Source of the DNA: a bacterium
GTDB lineage: Bacteria > Orphanbacterota > Orphanbacteria > Orphanbacterales > Orphanbacteraceae
NCBI GenBank assembly: GCA_025782575.1
Contig: JALGYY010000017.1
Location: 485,892 to 549,891 of the forward strand
Reading direction: 5' to 3'
Length of the DNA stretch: 64,000 bases
Shown here piece by piece: positions 20,308-37,581 of this stretch; within the stretch, counting starts at the first letter, position 1; every line of letters begins with the position of its first letter. The translations under genes were made by a program, and so were the position numbers. Under the pieces are notes generated by a model that did not search any database, had not been told where the DNA came from, and was given only the letters and a program-made list of their open reading frames with translations.

Positions 20308-20522
20308 CAGGCCAAGTGTACCCGCGGCGCTCGACAAAGTCTGCTTACCGCTGCTACCTCCCGGTCCTGACGGGGTTCACAGGAAGCCGTCGCGCGGGAC
20401 CTGACCATCGACGCCGCTCCCTATCGCAGCATCATCCGTGTTGAGCCTCGGAGAGGAATTCGACCCCGCTACAGCGGATTGCGGGTACAGGGCACCGCTA
20501 ACTCCCCGTCTAGCACGGCCCG
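20308..20522 (-). ncRNA. ffs: Signal recognition particle RNA (bacterial large type)
   Basis: The minus strand carries the conserved SRP domain IV hairpin at about 20343-20380: GTCAGGACCGG, the GGAGGTAGCAGCGG asymmetric loop and the GTAAGC closing side. The 5' part has GTGCTAGACGGGGAGTTAGC and GGTGCCCTGTACCCGC, as in long Alu-containing SRP RNAs of actinobacteria and relatives. The length is about 215 bases; both ends are estimates from pairing of GGGCC with GGCC. It acts with Ffh in membrane targeting. It lies 155 bases upstream of dnaX, the arrangement seen in Firmicutes (scr-dnaX). Confidence 0.88.
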
Positions 20523-20534
20523 TTTCTTACGAAG

Positions 20535-20610
20535 TGGTGGAGATGAGCGGGCTCGAACCGCCGACCTCTGCCTTGCGAAGGCAGCGCTCTCCCAGCTGAG
20601 CTACATCCCC
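20535..20610 (-). tRNA. tRNA-Ala(CGC)
   Basis: This 76-base gene includes an encoded CCA. The 7-base acceptor stem pairs GGGGATG with CATCTCC, the D-arm is TAGCTCAGCTGGGAGAGC, and the anticodon loop TTCGCAA (anticodon CGC) is closed by CTGCC/GGCAG. A GGTTCGAGCC T-arm is present. It reads GCG. Confidence 0.96.
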
Positions 20611-20630
20611 GGAATCGCTAATAACCAGCT

Positions 20631-20720
20631 TGGCGGAGAGAGAGGGATTCGAACCCTCGGTAGAGTTACCCCTACACGTGATTTCCAATCACGCCGATTC
20701 AGCCGCTCTCGCATCTCTCC
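20631..20720 (-). tRNA. tRNA-Ser(GGA)
   Basis: This 90-base class II tRNA includes encoded CCA. The acceptor stem is GGAGAGA/TCTCTCC, the anticodon loop TTGGAAA has anticodon GGA, a long variable arm is present, and the T-loop is TTCGAAT. It reads TCC and TCT. Confidence 0.96.
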
Positions 20721-20762
20721 GTCGTGCCGGTCGAAACGGCACTCTCAAAGTCCTGACTCCGG

Positions 20763-20849
20763 CGGAGAGAGAGGGATTCGAACCCTCGGACGAGTTGCCC
20801 CGTCAACGGTTTTCGAGACCGCCCCGTTCGACCACTCCGGCATCTCTCC
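20763..20849 (-). tRNA. tRNA-Ser(CGA)
   Basis: This is an 87-base class II tRNA. The acceptor stem is GGAGAGA/TCTCTCC, the anticodon loop CTCGAAA gives CGA (codon TCG), and the variable arm is long. The 3' bases read CCG rather than CCA, so the tail must be corrected or added by CCA-adding enzyme. It is adjacent to tRNA-Ser(GGA) with the same acceptor sequence, suggesting duplication. Confidence 0.95.
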
Positions 20850-21495
20850 GTGGCATAATTTACAATGGGTTACGCGGTTCGGTCAACCCCTCAATATGGG
20901 CGGCAGCTACGCCTTCCGGGCGCTCTTTAACGGTCCGGTTTTGCTCCTGACAGATACTTACCATCCTTCCTACACGTGCGCGGACTTCCCCTTTGAATGC
21001 GAGTGGCAGGGAAACGCGACGGACTTATCCGTTCTTGTTGTTGCGGGTTATGAGCATTCCGCTCTTCACATCTCCGGCTTGAGCCCGCGGGAGCTCCCTC
21101 CAGCGGAGTCACCTGCACAGCCCCAACCGAATCGCCTGTTCAGTGCAATCCGGCGTTAACTTCATTCCGTATAAACAGTTGGAACCTTCATCTCATCGGG
21201 AGCTCCGAATCCTGAAGTCATGGCTTTTTCGACGGGTTGCCGGCCAAGTTATGATCTTCACAGCGGAGGAACCTGTCTTGACAATCTGTCGATCGGTGTT
21301 ACCTTCGACTACTGAAGTATAGAGCAGAGGATACGAGAAGATCGCCTATCAGTCGGGACCTAGACAGTCCCCCCCGCGCGAAACCCTCGAAGCTAGGCCG
21401 TAGCGTCTTCTGATGGAATCCCCGGCATCAATGTTGGTGGACTTCCCGGTCAGCAGGTCATCGATCAAATAGAACTATCCGCGTCCGGCGGATGT
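20850..21495. other. Gene-poor stretch upstream of the inositol-phosphate fusion gene
   Basis: These 646 bases between the tRNA cluster and the next gene show no convincing coding sequence; the long open frame that crosses the tRNAs has no codon-usage or family support. The distal part contains a good -35 element with a weaker -10 (21278-21305). The rest is unassigned. Confidence 0.5.
21278..21305 (+). promoter_or_regulatory. Possible sigma-70-type promoter
   Basis: TTGACA at 21278-21283 is a consensus -35 box. A 16-base spacer leads to TACCTT at 21300-21305. It lies about 190 bases before the start of the inositol-phosphate fusion gene and is the only recognisable promoter in this gap. Whether this host uses such elements is assumed. 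Confidence 0.35.
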
Positions 21496-23772
21496 ATGTT
21501 AGGGGGCTCAGTGTCTATAATTCAGGCCGATCTCTCCTCGACCCTGGTTCGACTACACCAGGAAACTTTTCGGGCCGCAATAACCGAAGCCGATGTTGCC
21601 TCCCCGGTAGTCGGCACGAACCGAAAGGGCGACGGGCAGCGCGCCTTCGATATTGCCGCTGACCTTGCTGTGCGGCGGTTTCTCGAACGAGATTTTATAT
21701 CTGGGATCATCCTTTCCGAAGAATCGGATACCTTCAGTTTTGGTCAGGTTGAGCCAGCCTACCGTTTCATTGTTGATCCCGTGGACGGTTCAGACAACTG
21801 GGCTCGTGGCCTGGCCTACTCGTCCTTGAGTGTGGCTGTGCTTCCCGCGCAGGGACCAATCGCCCTTGACCGGGTCGTCGGGGCTTTGGTTGGAAACTTG
21901 ACCGAAGGAGCTCCTGTTGTCGCTATCCGAGGTGAGGGAGCCCACTGCGGCACCGACCTGCTTCAGGCCTCCGCGACAAGAAAGCTGGAGGACGCTTTCA
22001 TATCCTGCGAACTCAATCACTTCTCGCCGACACCCCCGCTGGGTAACCTCTTTGCCCGGGCCCGTGCCGTCCGTTCTTACGGCTGTGCCTCCCAAGCCAT
22101 CCTGCTTGTGGCTCGCGGAAGCATCGACGCCCATATAGATGTCCGGTCGAGGCTGACTCCCGAGAGCTTCCTTGCGGCCGCGGCGGTTTTGCAGGAAGCC
22201 GGTGGATGTGTGCTCGATGCAGAAGGTAAACCGCTTGGTGATTTTTCGAGGATCAATGAGAAGGCGACTCTTATCGCTGCTGCAACAAAGGAACTTGCCC
22301 GGGAAATTGTCGACGCGCTCGCCGAGAACAGAGGCGGGACCTACCTGGACGATCCGCCAGCCGCCGTCATCCTCGCGGCTGGCAACGGCTCCCGGTTGAC
22401 ATCAGAGCAGAACGGAGCGCCCAAGCCCGTCCTGAATCTGCTCGGCATGTCTCTGGCGGAGCGCGCAATCACCTCCTGTGTCGCCGCCGGGATTCGCCGT
22501 TTCATCATCGTACTTGGATACCGTGCCGATCAGGTTCAAGCGCATTATGAGAAGATAGCCGCCCGCCGGAATTGCAGCGTCGAGTTCGTCACTGCCCAAG
22601 ACTGGAAGCTCGGCAACGGTGTCAGCGCATTGGCCGCCGCGGACAAGGTTGGAAGGGCTCCCTTCCTGCTCATCATGTCCGACCATCTGATCGCCCCGTC
22701 GTTGGTGGAGACTGTCCTTGGCAGCGACCTGCGAGAGCGCGGAATCTGTCTCGCCGTGGACCGTCATAAGGACGGGGTTTTTGATTTAGAGGATGTCACC
22801 AAGGTAGTACTGAAAGATAATCTTGTGACCCGGGTCGGGAAGGATCTAGAAGAATGGGATGCGGCTGATACGGGAGTATTCCTTTGCACAGACGCTCTCT
22901 TCGGCGCGATCAAAACGGTCATGGTGCGGGGACGATACTCCTTGTCCGATGGGGTGATTGAGCTTGCTGCGGACGATCGCGTTAGTGCCGTTGATGTCAC
23001 CGGTGAAGTCTGGATCGATGTGGATACCCCGGAGGCCTTACAGGAGGCACGAAGACGAATTCTTGCCTCCCTTACGAAGGGGGGAGCGGACGGTTTCGTG
23101 TCTACCTGGTTGAACCGGCCTGTCTCCAGGCGCCTCTCTGAAAAGCTAGCCATGACGGCAATCACGCCCAACCAGATCACCGTCATCAGCTTCCTGATCT
23201 GCCTGATCGGAGCGGGCTTGCTCTCGGCAAGCCAGTATACCGCCTGGCTTATCGGCGGGCTGCTGGTCCAGCTGGCTTCCATCGTCGATGGCTGCGATGG
23301 GGAGATTGCTCGATTGAAACATCTGAGTTCTCCTCGCGGGGCATGGCTCGACACCATTTTGGATCGATACGGAGATGTAGCTGTTGCTCTGGCCGTCACG
23401 TACGCTTACGCAGCGGTCCATCCCGGTCCGGCACCTTGGATTGCCGGATTTCTTGCGGCCTTCGGATTTATTCTGGCCAGCTATGTAACGAAGGAGTACG
23501 CCATCCGGCATGGTCAGCCGTATCCGGATGACGTGCTTAATCGTATCAAACGCCGGGACCTGAGACTACTTCTTATCAGCGTCGGGGCGGTCGCCGGCCA
23601 CCCATTCGAGGCCCTTATGCTCGGAGGCATTCTCTCGCACATTTCGGTGATCGGCATTCTTATCAAGACGTGGAGGAAAAAGCCGGACGGAAGACGGCCG
23701 CGAGGGGAGGATTCGATCTCTCCTCTAGTTCCAATTGTTAGCCAGACTTCCACATCGCCCCTGGGTCCCTGA
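21496..23772 (+). CDS. Triple fusion: inositol monophosphatase-like, nucleotidyltransferase and CDP-alcohol phosphatidyltransferase
   Basis: This 758-residue protein has three enzyme domains. Residues 1-280 are an IMPase-family phosphatase with SEES at 74-77 and the metal motif DPVDGSDN at 94-101. Residues about 287-520 are a sugar-phosphate nucleotidyltransferase with AVILAAGNGSRL near 288 and MSDHLIAP (catalytic Asp). Residues about 540-740 are a membrane CDP-alcohol phosphotransferase with DGCDGEIARL near 598 followed by G and two Asp in GAWLDTILDRYGD. The last two domains in this order form the known IPCT-DIPPS enzyme, which makes CDP-inositol and joins it to inositol-1-phosphate giving di-myo-inositol-phosphate phosphate. 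The phosphatase would finish that solute or recycle inositol phosphate. A phosphoinositol lipid is an alternative product. GTG at 21511 is a second possible start. Confidence 0.85.
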   Translation: MLGGSVSIIQADLSSTLVRLHQETFRAAITEADVASPVVGTNRKGDGQRAFDIAADLAVRRFLERDFISGIILSEESDTFSFGQVEPAYRFIVDPVDGSDNWARGLAYSSLSVAVLPAQGPIALDRVVGALVGNLTEGAPVVAIRGEGAHCGTDLLQASATRKLEDAFISCELNHFSPTPPLGNLFARARAVRSYGCASQAILLVARGSIDAHIDVRSRLTPESFLAAAAVLQEAGGCVLDAEGKPLGDFSRINEKATLIAAATKELAREIVDALAENRGGTYLDDPPAAVILAAGNGSRLTSEQNGAPKPVLNLLGMSLAERAITSCVAAGIRRFIIVLGYRADQVQAHYEKIAARRNCSVEFVTAQDWKLGNGVSALAAADKVGRAPFLLIMSDHLIAPSLVETVLGSDLRERGICLAVDRHKDGVFDLEDVTKVVLKDNLVTRVGKDLEEWDAADTGVFLCTDALFGAIKTVMVRGRYSLSDGVIELAADDRVSAVDVTGEVWIDVDTPEALQEARRRILASLTKGGADGFVSTWLNRPVSRRLSEKLAMTAITPNQITVISFLICLIGAGLLSASQYTAWLIGGLLVQLASIVDGCDGEIARLKHLSSPRGAWLDTILDRYGDVAVALAVTYAYAAVHPGPAPWIAGFLAAFGFILASYVTKEYAIRHGQPYPDDVLNRIKRRDLRLLLISVGAVAGHPFEALMLGGILSHISVIGILIKTWRKKPDGRRPRGEDSISPLVPIVSQTSTSPLGP

Positions 23773-23939
23773 CCAGTTGATCGAAAAGAAATGCCAGAAG
23801 GCGATTCGTGTGGGAAAGCATGGATGAGATCAATTGGAAAAACGGTATCTTTCCCGAGGGCGCACGTTCATCATAATAAGTGGCAAGTTTGATAGGTTCT
23901 TAGTTGTTTATGGTCTTGGATTGGCAAGAGGGTGGGAGA

Positions 23940-24131
23940 ATGACACAGAGAGATATCTGCCTTAATCGGAATCACGGTCTTGCGAATGCGCCGGTGCGCT
24001 GTTGCCCGATGTGTGGTGAAGTCGTGAATCAAAACATCCCGAACAGGAACTGCAAGGCAGAGGAACACGCGAGATACAGACTTGAGAGGAGTACTTATTG
24101 CTTGCATTGCGGCGAACAACTAATCAAGTAG
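23940..24131 (+). CDS. Small zinc-ribbon protein of unknown function
   Basis: This 63-residue protein, starting MTQRDICLNRNHG, has a GGTGGGAGA just before the ATG. It has CCPMCGE and CLHCGE, two CxxC knuckles about 40 residues apart that would bind one zinc ion, and extra Cys and His residues at the N-terminus. Similar short proteins occur in many uncultured bacteria, with no known role. An upstream in-frame ATG at 23904 is possible but lacks a ribosome site. It stands alone between the fusion enzyme and a pseudogene. Confidence 0.68.
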   Translation: MTQRDICLNRNHGLANAPVRCCPMCGEVVNQNIPNRNCKAEEHARYRLERSTYCLHCGEQLIK

Positions 24132-24147
24132 CGATAGCAAGCAGAGA

Positions 24148-24818
24148 ATGCCCCCGCTGTACGGTCCGCTCCTCCTAGCGTCGGAATCTGCGAAGACCGT
24201 CGCCGTTTCAGGCTATCGCTACACTTGGCCGCCGACAGAAGTAAACGGCGCCATGGTCACTCAGATACTGGGCGCCAAAAAGAAGAACTGGAATCCGACT
24301 ACCTACCCCGCCGACCGGCTCGTCGACACTCCCCTTGCCGATCTGGGATTCAATCGCTGCAAAGTGGAAAAGGCGAACTACCAGTTGAACCGGGATCTCA
24401 AGCTGACTGCTGCCTGCCGCGTTCTCCTCGACTCGCTCTGACCAGTATCGATGCAAGCGAGCATGTGTACATTGTGGAGTACGTTCTCGGCGACGAGGAG
24501 ACCATCGAAGATCTCAAGGAGACGATTCCTGAATTGTACGCCATCACCGATAGCCTGATCGGTGTTGTCACGCGAGACGCGGCCGAGGAGGACATCGTGA
24601 TGGTCATCTCAGATCATGGCCACGACAGGGATGGGAGCGGCCACCGTTTCGGCGCGGAGGGGATCATAGTTATGGCCGAAGGCCCGGTGCAACAGGGGGG
24701 AAAAATCGAATCCGCCACGGTCTTCGACGTTCTCCCCACTGTCTTTCATACCATGGGAGTACCGGTCCCCGTCGGGATCAAGGGACGAGTGCTCACTGAT
24801 ATCTTCAAGAGTGACTGA
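24148..24818 (+). pseudogene. Decayed type I phosphodiesterase/alkaline phosphatase-superfamily protein
   Basis: Two frames together give one broken protein. The first frame (24148-24441) has VAVSGYRYTWPPTEVNGAM and RDLKLTAACRVLLDSL, then stops. The second frame takes over near 24430 with SIDASEHVYIVEYVLG, VISDHGHDRDGSGHRFG (metal-binding D and H residues), FDVLPTVFHTMGVPVP and the end. This matches the C-terminal half of nucleotide pyrophosphatase-like phosphodiesterases. The N-terminal part with the catalytic Thr is missing, and a single-base shift breaks the rest. Sequencing error could explain the shift but not the missing N-terminus. Confidence 0.75.
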
Positions 24819-24834
24819 TCGACCGGCATGAAAC

Positions 24835-26247
24835 TCAACCGATCGGCTCACACCCGGGATCAATCGGAAGTCGGATTAGCATGACCGAGCCCTCTCCCTC
24901 CCTGCTTTCCAGGTTCAGCGTGCCGCCGTTTACTTCAACCGCCCAGCGGGCAATCGGGAGGCCGAGGCCCGTCCCGCCGATCTCGCGTGACCGGGACTTG
25001 TCGACACGATAGAAGCGCTCGAATACCTGCTCCTGTTGACCGAGGGGAATACCACATCCCTTGTCTATTACCTGCACGGTCGCAGCCTCCTGCTCCCGTC
25101 TGACGACGACACGAATGGAAGAGCCGTCCGGGCTGTACTTGATCGCATTATCTACCAGATTCACGAACGCCCGTCGTAGCACTTCACGGTCCGCTGTGGC
25201 GACGATACCATCGGCACTCTCGACGGAGAGAGATTGCTCTTTTTCCTCTGCAAGAACGCTCATGTCATCGACGACTTCACGGGCGAGCAGTCCGAAATCA
25301 ACACACTCTCGCTTGAGCGCCACCCGTCCGTCATCGAGCCGACTCAGTGTCAGAAGAGTGTCCACCATCTGGGCCAGTCTGTCCGACTCCTCCAGCATGC
25401 TACCGATCGCCTCGCGGTATGCGCCTTCGTCTCGACTTCCACGCAGGGCAACCTCGCCGACACTTCTGATACTGGTCAACGGGGTCCGTAGTTCGTGCGA
25501 AGCATCCGCCGAGAATCTTCGCAATTCCTGGAACGATCGATCGAGTCTGGCGAAGGTCCGGTTGAACACCTCGGCAAGCTGGCCCAGCTCATCATCGGGA
25601 TTGTCTACCGGTAGACGCTCGAACAGGCGCTCCGCAGTAATTGCATCGGCTCGATCCGCCATATGGGCTAGTGGAGCCAGGAGCCGCTTCGCCAACGCGT
25701 AGCCCCCGAAGCCCGCAAGCACAGCCCCGAGTGGAAGGGCGAGAAGCTCGATCAGCGCAAGCTTTTTCACCATACCGCGCATACGTTCTTCCGAGCGGAT
25801 GACACGGACCACCACGCGAAGCCCGTCGATCGAAGAGGGTCGCTGGAGATACCGAGCCTTCATCCCATTCGGCAAGAACAGGTGGCCGGTCGCTCCTCCT
25901 CCCGCTCCCGGCCTTCCCGTCATCGCTCCCATCCACTCGGCCGCATCGCTCCGAAAGAGCAATTCGCCATCGGGGCTCCACGCCTCGGCCGACACCTGAT
26001 CCTCGAGCTCTTCACCTTCATGATGAGAATCTACGCGCCAGCTGACCTCACCGCGGGCGCTCCTCTCCAACATCAACTCGGCCACCTCGTAATCCTCGCG
26101 CAACCGCTGATCCAGCTCGGCGGACAGGCTTCGCCACACAAAAGCCAGGACTCCGCCCCCATAGATAAGCAACAGCACCAGCAGCGCACCCGCATACCAT
26201 ATGGTCAGGCGTACGCGGAGGTCCTGCCGTCGCCATCGATCCGTCAT
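24835..26247 (-). CDS. Sensor histidine kinase
   Basis: This 470-residue inner-membrane kinase has two membrane helices (about 12-32 and 160-182) bracketing a periplasmic sensor domain. A HAMP domain (LAKRLLAPLAHMADRADAI) follows, then HisKA with the phospho-acceptor in FSADASHELRTPLTSI, and an HATPase with LVDNAIKYSPDGS, DKGCGIP and GGTGLGL. It resembles the CusS/QseC type. Its start overlaps the stop of the response regulator gene, so it is co-translated with it. The signal is unknown; a haem-motif lipoprotein gene lies just upstream of the pair. Confidence 0.93.
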   Translation of the reverse strand: MTDRWRRQDLRVRLTIWYAGALLVLLLIYGGGVLAFVWRSLSAELDQRLREDYEVAELMLERSARGEVSWRVDSHHEGEELEDQVSAEAWSPDGELLFRSDAAEWMGAMTGRPGAGGGATGHLFLPNGMKARYLQRPSSIDGLRVVVRVIRSEERMRGMVKKLALIELLALPLGAVLAGFGGYALAKRLLAPLAHMADRADAITAERLFERLPVDNPDDELGQLAEVFNRTFARLDRSFQELRRFSADASHELRTPLTSIRSVGEVALRGSRDEGAYREAIGSMLEESDRLAQMVDTLLTLSRLDDGRVALKRECVDFGLLAREVVDDMSVLAEEKEQSLSVESADGIVATADREVLRRAFVNLVDNAIKYSPDGSSIRVVVRREQEAATVQVIDKGCGIPLGQQEQVFERFYRVDKSRSREIGGTGLGLPIARWAVEVNGGTLNLESREGEGSVMLIRLPIDPGCEPIG

Positions 26248-26927
26248 GGTGCGTCATCCTTAAGTAGAAAGCCGACGCCGCGAACTGTGTTGATCAGTCT
26301 ACCGGTGGAACCCTGATCCACCTTCTTTCGAAGCCGCGACATGTGAACATCAATCACGTTATCGAGAGGGGTGGTGCGCTCCGGCGTCTTCCACACATCC
26401 CGCGCCAGCATCTCGCGCGACACGGTGTGTCCTTCATGGCGGAGGAGGTATTCGAGAAGCTCCATTTCGCGAGCCGTGAGATCAAGTAATCGGTCACCTC
26501 TTGTGACTGTGTGAGTGACCAGATCCATCTTGAGATCGCCCGTCTGGAGTTTCAGCACCTGATCCGGGCGACCTCGTCTGAGCAGTGCACGAATACGCGC
26601 CAGCAGTTCAGAAAACGCAAACGGTTTCACCAGGTAGTCGTCTGCGCCGCTGTTCAGCCCGAGCACACGATCTTCTACGGTATCACGCGCCGTAAGAATG
26701 AGGACAGGTGTCTGGATTCCCTGTTTTCGCGCTGTCTTCAGAATCTCGATGCCGTTCCGACCGGGAAGCATCAGGTCAAGGATGACTACATCGAAGATTT
26801 CAGCACTCAGCTGGAAGAATCCCTCTTCGCCGGTCGCGGCCACTACGACATCGTAGTGCTCTTCCTTCAGGCCTTTTTCCAATGCTCTGGCTACTTTTGC
26901 TTCGTCTTCTACCAGAAGGATTCGCAC
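26244..26927 (-). CDS. OmpR-family response regulator
   Basis: This 227-residue protein has a receiver domain with D51 in VVILDLMLPGRNG and the conserved Lys in DYLVKPFAF, plus a C-terminal winged helix (about 125-222) with LDLTAREMELLEYLLRH and VDVHMSRLRKKVD-like recognition helix. It is the partner of the histidine kinase that overlaps its stop by four bases. Likely targets are nearby membrane or envelope genes, but no operator was identified. Confidence 0.94.
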   Translation of the reverse strand: MRILLVEDEAKVARALEKGLKEEHYDVVVAATGEEGFFQLSAEIFDVVILDLMLPGRNGIEILKTARKQGIQTPVLILTARDTVEDRVLGLNSGADDYLVKPFAFSELLARIRALLRRGRPDQVLKLQTGDLKMDLVTHTVTRGDRLLDLTAREMELLEYLLRHEGHTVSREMLARDVWKTPERTTPLDNVIDVHMSRLRKKVDQGSTGRLINTVRGVGFLLKDDAP

Positions 26928-27036
26928 TTTCAGAATCTCCTCGGAGCCCCTGACTGACCAACGGTGGGATCGATTCCCTGCCCCATGATACTACACTGAA
27001 TTCCTGGAGCCGGACCGTTCATGTCCCTTACGGCAG

Positions 27037-27065
27037 TGGGGCGCACCTTCGGAAGGCGCGCCCCA
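27037..27065 (-). terminator. Strong hairpin after the haem-motif lipoprotein gene
   Basis: TGGGGCGC (27037-27044) pairs with GCGCCCCA (27058-27065) and an inner CCTT pairs with AAGG around CGG. It lies 34 bases past the lipoprotein stop and before the response regulator. It lacks a T-run, so it may be a processing or weak termination signal that separates the two units. Confidence 0.5.
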
Positions 27066-27098
27066 CACACTACGAACCGATAGAGCTTGCCGTTTTCG

Positions 27099-28265
27099 TT
27101 ATTCGCCCAGGATCAACTGGTACGCCGTTCCGGCGAATCCACCAGGTGTCGCATGAGCGATGGCCGCATTGTTCATGATTCCTACGGAGAACCAGTACGG
27201 CTCGCCGGTCATCGTGTACTGTACATCGTCGGTATTACCTGTGTCCCGGGCACGCTTGATCTTCAGCGACCATTCGCCGTTGGACCAGTTGTGCCACGCG
27301 GAGACGTCACCGCGGCTACCCGTGCCCGGCTTGATGCCCATCAGGCTCGGAATCACGATGTCGCTGTCGTATCCGAACAGAGACTTGTCGAGAACGGTGC
27401 CATCTTCGTCCACCCAGTTGCCGTCGTCGTTCAGGTCGACAATCAGTCTGGCCACACCGGCATCGATTTCGGTCTGCATGATCCAGTGATAATCGGTACG
27501 GCCGGGAATCCAGTACATGGGAGCCGTAACAGTCGGACCGGCGCTGGTCACCAGTTCCTGGTTATTGCTGCTGTAGGCACCGGTACCTTCGTCACCATGC
27601 CGACCGTTCTCGTCGTTGTTCAGCCACTTGTCGTCGATCTGGTTGACCGGGCCGGTCCGGTCGCGCTTCCAATGCCAGATGTCGGCGAGCTCGCCGGGGG
27701 CATTGGTAGCCATGTTCTTGCCATGGCAGAGCACCGCGCATCCGGTGTTCTCGAAATTGTTCATCGAGATGTTCCAGAACATGGTGAACTTGTCTTCGTA
27801 AGCAGGTGGATTACCGAATTCGTCGGGGTACTTCTTCCCCATCTGCAGCCACTTGCCGCCTGTTTGATTGTAGTACCAGGCCTGGCGCGTCTTTGAGTCT
27901 TCCGCATCATTCCAGGTTGCAAGGAAATAGATATCGTTGTCGGTATAGACCGACTTCATTGTCAGGTTGATCTCCATTCCTTCGTAGTCATCCCACCAGA
28001 TATCGTGCCCGTCAACTTCGACGTCATACGGTGTCACGATGGTGGCGATGCTCACCCCTTCAACATCAGCCCAGAGAGCGTCAACCGTGGCATTCTCGGC
28101 CGGCGCTGTTGAGACTTTCTCCGATACGAGCGCTCCATCCGGATACTCGGGGGCCACCGGACCTGGGGTATCATTGTCGTCGCTCGAACTGCAGGACACC
28201 AAGCCCAAGCCGATCACGCCAATCAGCGCACCCAATAAGGGTCTAAACTGCAAGAGTCGCCTCAT
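27099..28265 (-). CDS. Ethylbenzene-dehydrogenase-related haem-binding domain lipoprotein
   Basis: This 388-residue protein starts MRRLLQFRPLLGALIG, with GGAGGAG upstream of the ATG; a longer frame upstream is not needed. The lipobox LVSC puts a lipidated Cys near residue 22. The rest resembles the EB_dh domain, the haem b-binding gamma subunit fold of ethylbenzene dehydrogenase and related DMSO-reductase-family enzymes, with WWDDYEGMEINL and the central CAVLCHGKN (a CxxxCH motif). Aromatic and Asp-rich stretches suggest a periplasmic or surface beta-sandwich. The expected molybdopterin catalytic subunit is not nearby, so it may be a stand-alone electron-transfer or haem-binding lipoprotein. 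A two-component system lies downstream. Confidence 0.75.
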   Translation of the reverse strand: MRRLLQFRPLLGALIGVIGLGLVSCSSSDDNDTPGPVAPEYPDGALVSEKVSTAPAENATVDALWADVEGVSIATIVTPYDVEVDGHDIWWDDYEGMEINLTMKSVYTDNDIYFLATWNDAEDSKTRQAWYYNQTGGKWLQMGKKYPDEFGNPPAYEDKFTMFWNISMNNFENTGCAVLCHGKNMATNAPGELADIWHWKRDRTGPVNQIDDKWLNNDENGRHGDEGTGAYSSNNQELVTSAGPTVTAPMYWIPGRTDYHWIMQTEIDAGVARLIVDLNDDGNWVDEDGTVLDKSLFGYDSDIVIPSLMGIKPGTGSRGDVSAWHNWSNGEWSLKIKRARDTGNTDDVQYTMTGEPYWFSVGIMNNAAIAHATPGGFAGTAYQLILGE

Positions 28266-28524
28266 TTTAGGGTTCTCCTCCTGTTCTGGCTTGCGCCCAC
28301 ATTTACTTGTGCGAGCCCCAGCCGCCACAATTTCTATCTCCGGTGCGGAGATGCCGCACGGCGAAGATACAAAGACCGCGCCACCCGGTCCTGCCAGGCA
28401 GCACACACAATCTAGGTGGCAGCTAAATTTTCACAAGTGAACATTTTCTTACATTTCGTTAAGAATCGGCGGGGGCACTCGAAATTCTGTAAGTCGTTGA
28501 AATAATTAAGATTGATCGAGATTT

Positions 28525-36441: not shown

Positions 36442-36527
36442 TGGCGGAGGGAGTAGGATTCGAACCCACGAACCTTTCGGTTAACGGTTTTCAAGACCGC
36501 CGCCTTAAACCACTCGGCCATCCCTCC
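36442..36527 (-). tRNA. tRNA-Ser(TGA)
   Basis: This 86-base class II tRNA includes encoded CCA. The anticodon loop CTTGAAA gives TGA (codons TCA and TCG). Its 5' end lies only 13 bases from the integrase stop, so this gene marks the border of the island. The island is on the 5' side of the tRNA, which is unusual for tRNA-directed integration. Confidence 0.95.
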
Positions 36528-36540
36528 GTGGATGGTTAAG

Positions 36541-37581
36541 CTACTCGGTGACAGGCGGTTGTGTCAATCTTATTGAACCCACATTCACACATGAACTATT
36601 TTTTGCTACGGTCTTTGCTACGGTTTGCACTGAAAACACCCTTCCCACCTCCCTCTCCACGGCATCATCAGATAGCTTACCGTAGCGCTGTGTCGTCACG
36701 ATCGTCGAGTGACCTAGGATTTGCTGGAGGGCAGCGATGCCTCCTCCCTGCTCCAACCAGCGGCACGCATAGGTATGGCGAAGGCGATGGCAACGAAAGT
36801 CCCTGATGCCGCTCAGACGTCGAACCATCCTCGCGAAGGCACCCGAGCTCTTCTCCCCAAACGGAATCACCTTCCCGATCCTCCCGCGCAGCTCAGCGCA
36901 AATCTCGACCGGCAAAGGAACCCTACGCACCTTACCGGTCTTAGTCTGGCTCACCGTGAGCTTCCCCTTCTGGATATCCGCTACCTGAGCTCGTGCCATC
37001 TCCCCCCAGCGAAGGCCAGTCGATAGGCCAAAGCGGATCACGAAACCATATGGCTCTTGAAGCAGAATCAAGGTCTCGACCTCTTCATCCGACAGCCTAG
37101 CAGGAGGCTTCTCTTGGATTCGCGGCATCATCTTCCGACGGAATGGTGTCTTGTCGATCAAGCCGGAGTCCTCGCACCACAGAAAGAAGCATCGGCAATC
37201 GCTCAGAATATGGGCCACTGTTTGGATACTCACTCCTTGCTTCTCGAGCCAGATCCGATAGAGCCGAATATCGTCTGGCCTTACACTCGACAGCAGTTTG
37301 TACCCCAGTTTCTTTCCGAGGTATCGCTCGACCCGGTACTTAGCTGTTCCCACATTCTTGTCACTCCGGGCAACAGCTATGTACGTTTCAAGCCAGCGAA
37401 CTGCCGCCTGATTGACTGAGAGACCAGAAGCCGGTTGATCACCTCGCTTGATGCGACGGAATCTCCGACACGCTTCTCCAAGATCTGGCCCTAGGCAAAT
37501 CCATCGTTCCTGCCCCCCATCATAGAGGCGCGAATACCATGAACGTCCGCGACGAAACATCCCCTTCAGTGGTCGCGGCAT
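36541..37581 (-). CDS. Tyrosine-type site-specific integrase
   Basis: This 346-residue phage-type integrase has an N-terminal SAM-like core-binding domain (about 55-150). Its C-terminal catalytic domain carries R191 (in TGLRWGEM), H266 and R269 (in HRLRHTYACRW), H291 (LGHST) and the nucleophile Y300 (TTQRYGKL). All catalytic residues are present, so it is likely active. It cuts and joins DNA at the att site, probably in or next to tRNA-Ser(TGA). It follows the HTH gene by six bases and is the last gene of the long minus-strand unit. Confidence 0.93.
   Translation of the reverse strand: MPRPLKGMFRRGRSWYSRLYDGGQERWICLGPDLGEACRRFRRIKRGDQPASGLSVNQAAVRWLETYIAVARSDKNVGTAKYRVERYLGKKLGYKLLSSVRPDDIRLYRIWLEKQGVSIQTVAHILSDCRCFFLWCEDSGLIDKTPFRRKMMPRIQEKPPARLSDEEVETLILLQEPYGFVIRFGLSTGLRWGEMARAQVADIQKGKLTVSQTKTGKVRRVPLPVEICAELRGRIGKVIPFGEKSSGAFARMVRRLSGIRDFRCHRLRHTYACRWLEQGGGIAALQQILGHSTIVTTQRYGKLSDDAVEREVGRVFSVQTVAKTVAKNSSCVNVGSIRLTQPPVTE

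Follow-up and report, generated by a model that had tools for sequence, protein, structure and literature searches.

A three-domain protein of an Orphanbacterota genome as a candidate single-chain di-myo-inositol-phosphate synthase, and its overlapping-operon relatives in bacteria

A single unbroken reading frame in a genome of the phylum Orphanbacterota joins a phosphatase of the inositol monophosphatase (IMPase) fold to a CTP:inositol-1-phosphate cytidylyltransferase (IPCT) type domain and a DIPPS-type CDP-alcohol phosphotransferase. Judged from sequence and predicted fold, the encoded protein is fairly probably a trifunctional synthase of di-myo-inositol phosphate (DIP), derived from an operon of other bacteria and acquired by transfer. 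While the chemistry itself is not new, the overlapping phosphatase/IPCT-DIPPS operon in bacteria and its fusion appear to be; neither an IMPase fused to IPCT-DIPPS in the open-access PMC literature nor a description of the wider bacterial phosphatase and IPCT-DIPPS operon was found.

In the scheme proposed here, of which we infer the substrates, the order of steps, the product and the direction of transfer, inositol-1-phosphate synthase (IPS), encoded elsewhere in the genome, would make L-myo-inositol-1-phosphate, which domain B of the fusion would convert with CTP into CDP-inositol. The membrane domain C would then use CDP-inositol to place phospho-inositol on another molecule of inositol-1-phosphate, giving DIP-phosphate (DIPP), and domain A, as the last step, would remove the terminal phosphate to yield the soluble compatible solute DIP. 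The gene source would have been an IPS-phosphatase-IPCT/DIPPS operon of marine bacteria, transferred into a site at the side of tRNA genes with IPS left behind, whereby the two overlapping genes would have been joined through loss of one base and loss of a stop.

Domain composition and closest relatives of the fusion protein

The window, the whole analysed stretch of 64,000 nucleotides, lies on contig C2 of a 4.88 Mb genome that is 95% complete. The fusion gene runs from ATG to TGA with zero internal stops (Table 1) and Pfam families cover it in succession, all above their gathering scores: Inositol_P (PF00459) at residues 50-276 (E 8.8e-21, 75 bits versus a gathering score of 27), the NTP transferase families PF12804/PF00483 at residues 290-521 (E 1.8e-12 and 7.8e-9) and CDP-OH_P_transf (PF01066) at residues 556-686 (E 2.6e-13). 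An AlphaFold model built from 28 aligned rows has a mean pLDDT of 88.9 and a pTM of 0.65. Searched against PDB folds, this model retrieved the IPCT-DIPPS of Archaeoglobus fulgidus (4mnd) first (TMt 0.82, 31% identity) and, with its N-terminal part, IMPases (6b64, TMt 0.88); by score and by fold, domain A is thus a member of the inositol monophosphatase family.

Table 1. Coordinates of the fusion gene, its parts and its surroundings in the window, and of HAD-type fusions at other loci
Feature	Position	Strand	Evidence or remark
Whole fusion gene	21496..23772	+	758 aa plus stop; ORF, Pfam, NCBIfam, PDB matches
Domain A, IMPase-fold phosphatase, residues 1-280	21496..22335	+	PF00459 E 8.8e-21; PH1897 1vdw E 3.4e-16; fold 6b64 TMt 0.88
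Phosphatase motif DPVDGS, residues 94-99	21775..21792	+	D94, D97, G98, S99 invariant in 27/27 sequences
E223-S224, usual position of the third metal-ligand Asp	22162..22167	+	Ser 25/27, Asn 2/27; preceding Glu invariant; paired with 1vdw Asp
Linker, residues 281-286, site of stop and other-frame restart in relatives	22336..22353	+	junction alignments; model pLDDT
Domain B, CTP:inositol-1-phosphate cytidylyltransferase (IPCT) type, residues 287-527	22354..23076	+	2xme E 2.5e-22; folds 4jd0 and 2xme
Domain C, DIPPS/AF2299-type CDP-alcohol phosphotransferase, helical membrane-type, residues 528-735	23077..23700	+	PF01066; 4mnd and 4o6m; 16 aligned rows
CDP-alcohol motif D598-GCD-G-EIAR ... G615-AWLD-TILD623	23287..23364	+	alignment, residues 598-623
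tRNA-Ala(cgc), tRNA-Ser(gga), tRNA-Ser(cga) beside insert	20535..20849	-	tRNA scan; order same in G001, G002, G004
Lineage-specific insert, tRNA-Ser to tadA, holding the fusion, 7.7 kb	20850..28524	.	comparison with G001
IPCT-DIPPS with C-terminal HAD phosphatase, one chain of ~700 aa	L182:1450-3546, L183:539-2602, L175:5731-7836		domain search

The best NCBIfam match for residues 290-727 is the bifunctional IPCT/DIPPS model NF041135 (268.3 bits, E 1.2e-79), whose curated cut-off of 580 bits is not reached and whose short name indicates Thermococcales; domains B and C are classed, on sequence, as IPCT/DIPPS-like and outside the NF041135 equivalog. Equally, the closest PDB sequence is 4mnd (residues 290-697, E 1.1e-54), followed by AF2299. 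The architecture is that of a bifunctional IPCT/DIPPS, with an NTP-transferase ahead of a CDP-alcohol transferase in one chain and IPCT-DIPPS as the best match. The consensus of class I CDP-alcohol phosphotransferases, D-xx-DG-xx-AR-x8-G-xxx-D-xxx-D, is present at residues 598-623, PF01066 scores above its cut-off and the model shows the helices, which places domain C in this class. Catalytic-type motifs of both the NTP-transferase and the CDP-alcohol transferase are kept across 16 aligned rows, of which L047 is the most divergent. The Archaeoglobus enzyme shares with the window protein the two domains, their order and both motifs at 31% identity in the structural alignment, but stems from a hyperthermophile and has no phosphatase domain, and the window protein scores below the NF041135 cut-off.

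The sequence-only reading had named the three domains in this order, which Pfam, NCBIfam, the sequence match to 4mnd and the predicted fold bear out. A closer similarity of the last two domains to lipid or choline enzymes, which would have spoken against that reading, was not found: against the 268 bits of NF041135, archaetidylinositol-phosphate synthase reaches 82.5 bits (cut-off 180), the BT1523-type 47.8 and PIP synthase 45.3 (cut-off 170), so that neither PIP synthase nor archaetidylinositol-phosphate synthase is the best family match or attains its cut-off. On family, sequence and fold scores a lipid or choline identity was ruled out as first choice for domains B and C, and was retained as a rival, which is weighed below.

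The phosphatase domain and the order of steps

Residues K44, E75, E76, D94, D97 and E223 of domain A are invariant in all 27 aligned sequences. The metal-ligand roles of the aligned residues we take to be those of IMPases; under this assumption the full set of ligands is incomplete in the domain A family, and because the third Asp, which would precede the EAGG helix, is replaced by Ser or Asn throughout the 27 sequences, the family may bind metal somewhat differently from canonical IMPases. The same substitution would fit a degenerate or changed IMPase with a structural or regulatory role and no phosphatase activity. This we regard as quite improbable, given that the six residues named above, including E223 adjacent to the substituted position, are invariant, that the IMPase fold is intact in the predicted model and that a second phosphatase fold has been joined to IPCT-DIPPS elsewhere.

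The latter chains, found at three loci (Table 1), resemble the window protein in carrying a phosphatase and IPCT-DIPPS in one polypeptide, but their HAD phosphatase is unrelated in fold to IMPase and sits at the C-terminus; at L182, a short-type IPS gene lies directly upstream. Because two unrelated phosphatases are joined to the same enzyme pair, a phosphatase step is suggested to belong to the IPCT-DIPPS pathway. On the other hand, Bacteroidetes clusters of NTP-transferase, CDP-alcohol transferase and HAD genes are thought to make inositol lipids (PMC9246714), so that association with HAD alone cannot separate DIP from lipid synthesis.

The phosphatase might also act first. In such an order, domain A would release free myo-inositol, which domain C would join straight to CDP-inositol as in a scheme of 1998, leading to the same product. 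IMPases typically act on inositol-1-phosphate, which agrees with this order, whereas later work on IPCT/DIPPS, ascribed to Rodrigues in 2007, reportedly has inositol-1-phosphate as the acceptor. A 2005 review contains the scheme in which a phosphatase makes free inositol, and equally considers, as speculation, a multifunctional 'DIP synthase' with dephosphorylating activity, acting on inositol-1-phosphate without releasing inositol (PMC1224877). Overall, the free-inositol order seems unlikely, and the phosphatase is placed last in the proposed scheme.

Inositol enzymes of the host genome and the lipid alternative

As the sequence-only reading had remarked, IPS is not encoded in the window. A search of the genome, the absence of an inositol synthase from which would have weakened the assignment, located IPS (PF01658, 116.3 bits) at G000:C2:306140-306478, on the same contig and 201 kb from the fusion, so inositol-1-phosphate should be available in the host. 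With domains B and C best matching IPCT-DIPPS and IPS in the same genome, the pathway originally proposed gains support as a predicted activity. The host IPS is, though, of the long type and shares 73-82% identity with its counterparts in kin genomes without the fusion; IPS occurs in five of six kin genomes, all of them non-carriers. As genomes have the long IPS whether or not they carry the fusion, finding it in the host says little by itself in favour of the pathway. Besides the fusion, the genome holds two IMPase-family genes and three further CDP-alcohol transferases, two of them PgsA-type and the third (L145) resembling PIP and archaetidylinositol-phosphate synthases. L145 scores 166.4 bits against archaetidylinositol-phosphate synthase and 126.6 bits against PIP synthase, just below the cut-offs and much closer than the fusion; an inositol lipid thus likely has another, more typical candidate enzyme in this genome.

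CDP-inositol-dependent lipid synthesis does exist: in Rhodothermus marinus, work ascribed to Jorge in 2015, which PMC9246714 cites, is said to have CDP-inositol passed to a lipid acceptor, a pathway that shares the CDP-inositol intermediate with the present scheme but differs in the lipid acceptor and the separate transferase. By analogy, domain C might pass the CDP-inositol of domain B to diacyl- or dialkylglycerol, while domain A would perform some other dephosphorylation. The Bacteroidetes clusters mentioned above are in line with this possibility, as are related loci in which a CDP-alcohol transferase is encoded apart from IPCT (L031, L078, L191, L193 and L194). Among 385 genomes sampled from the class of G155, four have IPS fused to IPCT in chains of ~630-700 aa (L194, L195, L196 and L198), and in L194 and L195, which possibly represent a lipid route, the separate CDP-alcohol transferase is encoded on the opposite strand. 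In the window protein, however, domains B and C form one chain, as they do in DIPPS, domain C is nearer to AfDIPPS and AF2299 than to the PIP-synthase families, L145 provides the genome with another PIP-synthase-like enzyme, and CDP-inositol lipid synthesis yields no phosphorylated product on which an IMPase could act. According to one study, neither AF2299 nor AfDIPPS processes lipids (PMC4634129). A lipid product is therefore held to be improbable, and synthesis of DIP remains the preferred reading.

A conserved overlapping operon in other bacteria

A scan of bacterial and archaeal genomes gave 79 related loci, 30 of which contain a phosphatase of the window type. In 26 of the 30, the phosphatase is followed by all or part of an IPCT/DIPPS gene; at two more, L035 and L036, the first IPCT residues are visible ahead of the contig end. 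L029, included among the 26, has domain C alone after the phosphatase, looks damaged and was set aside, as were L020 and L039, whose contigs stop ahead of IPCT. Of the 30 phosphatase loci, 25 are preceded by a short-type IPS gene; none is present at L011, L012, L029 and L030, and L023 is without upstream DNA. By sequence comparison, the conserved unit is an overlapping operon of phosphatase and IPCT-DIPPS, usually behind an IPS gene, carried by metagenome-assembled genomes (MAGs) named as Planctomycetota, Krumholzibacteriota, Verrucomicrobia and Alphaproteobacteria. Those operons (L005, L006, L008, L009, L015-L019 and others) and the window gene have in common the phosphatase family, an IPCT-DIPPS of up to 70% identity and the adjacent, overlapping arrangement; they differ in that the operon genes are separate, in different frames and accompanied by IPS inside the operon.

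The association is not universal. Among 18 other bacterial IPCT-DIPPS loci, none has the window-type phosphatase, while a short-type IPS adjoins at eight and a distant IPS is found at two; equally, the phosphatase is missing beside the IPS and IPCT-DIPPS of L007, a closely related Planctomycetota locus. So either the window-type phosphatase would be dispensable in some carriers, or a different phosphatase takes its place. IPCT-DIPPS occurs in five of 392 genomes (E <= 1e-60) of the phylum to which G145, the genome of L005, belongs, twice with a separate phosphatase, twice as HAD fusion and once plain. A sample of 385 genomes of the class of G155 gave 13 matches at E <= 1e-40, of which five have IPCT and DIPPS joined; the phosphatase is present in all five and fused in none, the fifth (G795) being a truncated gene that starts at a contig edge.

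A further arrangement was observed in Myxococcales/Deltaproteobacteria, where L050 (9704-11668) and similar loci among L046-L083 encode an IPCT-like domain within a chain of ~650 aa, in L050 joined to an aminotransferase domain of class I/II; these loci often have a long-type IPS and genes of CDP-alcohol transferases close by.

The junction between phosphatase and IPCT

In relatives, the linker of the window protein corresponds to the place where one gene stops and the next restarts (Table 1), and the model has its lowest internal confidence there (pLDDT <50 at residues 280-284). Phosphatase and IPCT lie in separate frames at all 26 junctions compared, a set with L035 but not L029; the phosphatase stop comes first, with a shift of one step at 25 junctions and of two at L027. 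The window linker is one base shorter than the junctions of five Planctomycetota loci (L005, L006, L008, L009 and L024), and the aligned stop position is a sense codon. Furthermore, codon indices 253 to 300 of the window junction are free of stops in all three frames.

These observations bear on whether the fusion might have arisen from faulty sequencing or assembly, with two separate genes in the actual organism as in its relatives. The separate frames in 26 of 26 relatives, the linker one base short and the occurrence of the fusion in one genome, known as assembled sequence alone, would all agree with an error. With no stop nearby in any frame, though, a single insertion or deletion would not restore the separate terminator of the relatives, and the rest of the fusion gene is intact; a simple frameshift artefact is thereby made unlikely, and an error of any such kind appears very improbable. 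On the assembled sequence alone, an evolved fusion through stop loss and a one-base deletion is a better fit than one sequencing slip, and the window gene would be a local fusion, an exception to the conserved overlapping operon. A second IMPase-type fused form was seen neither in 145 relatives and 7 genomes of the phylum, nor in the 392 genomes of the phylum of G145 (E <= 1e-60), the 385 genomes of the class of G155 (E <= 1e-40) or at the 26 named-locus junctions. The view that known enzymes keep the phosphatase separate consequently stands for the IMPase type, which is out of frame at all 26 junctions, but not for phosphatases in general, as three genomes fuse a HAD phosphatase to IPCT-DIPPS.

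A lineage-specific insert and the probable acquisition of the gene

The fusion gene lies in an insert between tRNA-Ser and tadA (Table 1). In G001, the order dnaX - tRNA-Ala - tRNA-Ser - tRNA-Ser - tadA with ~120 bases between the last two genes represents the empty site, and the same gap measures 1.6 kb in G004 and 11.8 kb in G002, which indicates a variable site. No strong match to the fusion was detected in the six kin genomes of the same family, which are all the others compared from the phylum. Since the gene is absent from these six, it was probably acquired, and horizontal gain is the simplest reading of the sequence comparisons. Phylogenetic analysis of 45 IPCT-DIPPS rows placed the window sequence among those of Planctomycetota, Krumholzibacteriota and Verrucomicrobia, a ten-row set with support of 100/100; without Verrucomicrobia its group has 99/92, the sister row being uncertain (82/25). 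RecA of the window genome matches family kin at 80-82% versus 59-70% for the named phyla compared (full-length matches; one partial match reaches 72%). A search for att-like ends or repeats of the insert gave only chance-level repeats besides the two tRNA-Ser genes, promoter scan scores were near those of shuffles, and in base composition the insert does not stand out.

The insert equally contains genes for a histidine kinase, a response regulator and an ethylbenzene-dehydrogenase-like (EB_dh) protein (24835-26927 and 27099-28406, minus strand) and, just downstream of the fusion, a possible remnant of the alkaline phosphatase superfamily with a weak phosphopentomutase match (24225-24818, plus strand; E 0.0026). 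Elsewhere in the window, a phage-type integrase adjoining tRNA-Ser(tga) (36442-37581, minus strand) likely marks a second insertion site. Reading frames across the tRNA genes (20479-21159, plus strand) are probably spurious, the 'GERGIRTLGR'-type peptides being an opposite-strand read of the tRNA-Ser genes.

Biological meaning

DIP has long been regarded as special to heat-loving microbes and as a marker of hot marine life, and the sequence-only reading had placed the pathway in hyperthermophiles and Rubrobacter. This range is too narrow, as published studies report IPCT-DIPPS genes in deep-sea Thaumarchaeota, including one with a nearby IMPase gene and transcripts measured in cold deep water (PMC8397731, PMC7265257, PMC10773090), and claim DIP genes for SAR116 (PMC12262181). 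By its published description, the MTA1 island of hadal Thaumarchaeota resembles the present case in its one-ORF IPCT-DIPPS, the additional inositol-monophosphatase gene nearby, the location on a genomic island and the cold deep-sea cells, but has an unfused phosphatase and an archaeal host (PMC7265257).

In its full form, the proposal states that one polypeptide performs every step from inositol-1-phosphate to DIP, that its phosphatase represents a family of its own, dedicated to DIPP and altered at the metal site, which travels with IPCT-DIPPS in marine bacteria presumed to be mesophilic on the basis of the marine origin of the MAGs, and that HAD phosphatases were joined independently; for this combination we see about even chances. 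If true, this would put a gene to the final reaction of the pathway, and the range of the solute would reach into many bacterial phyla that are not thermophilic. A chain possibly making DIP from one precursor, outside the known carrier lineages, is a compact test object, as one gene together with an IPS would suffice to probe whether DIP is made and at which point the phosphatase acts. For the closing dephosphorylation, both this phosphatase family and the HAD fusions offer candidates, which opens that reaction to direct testing.
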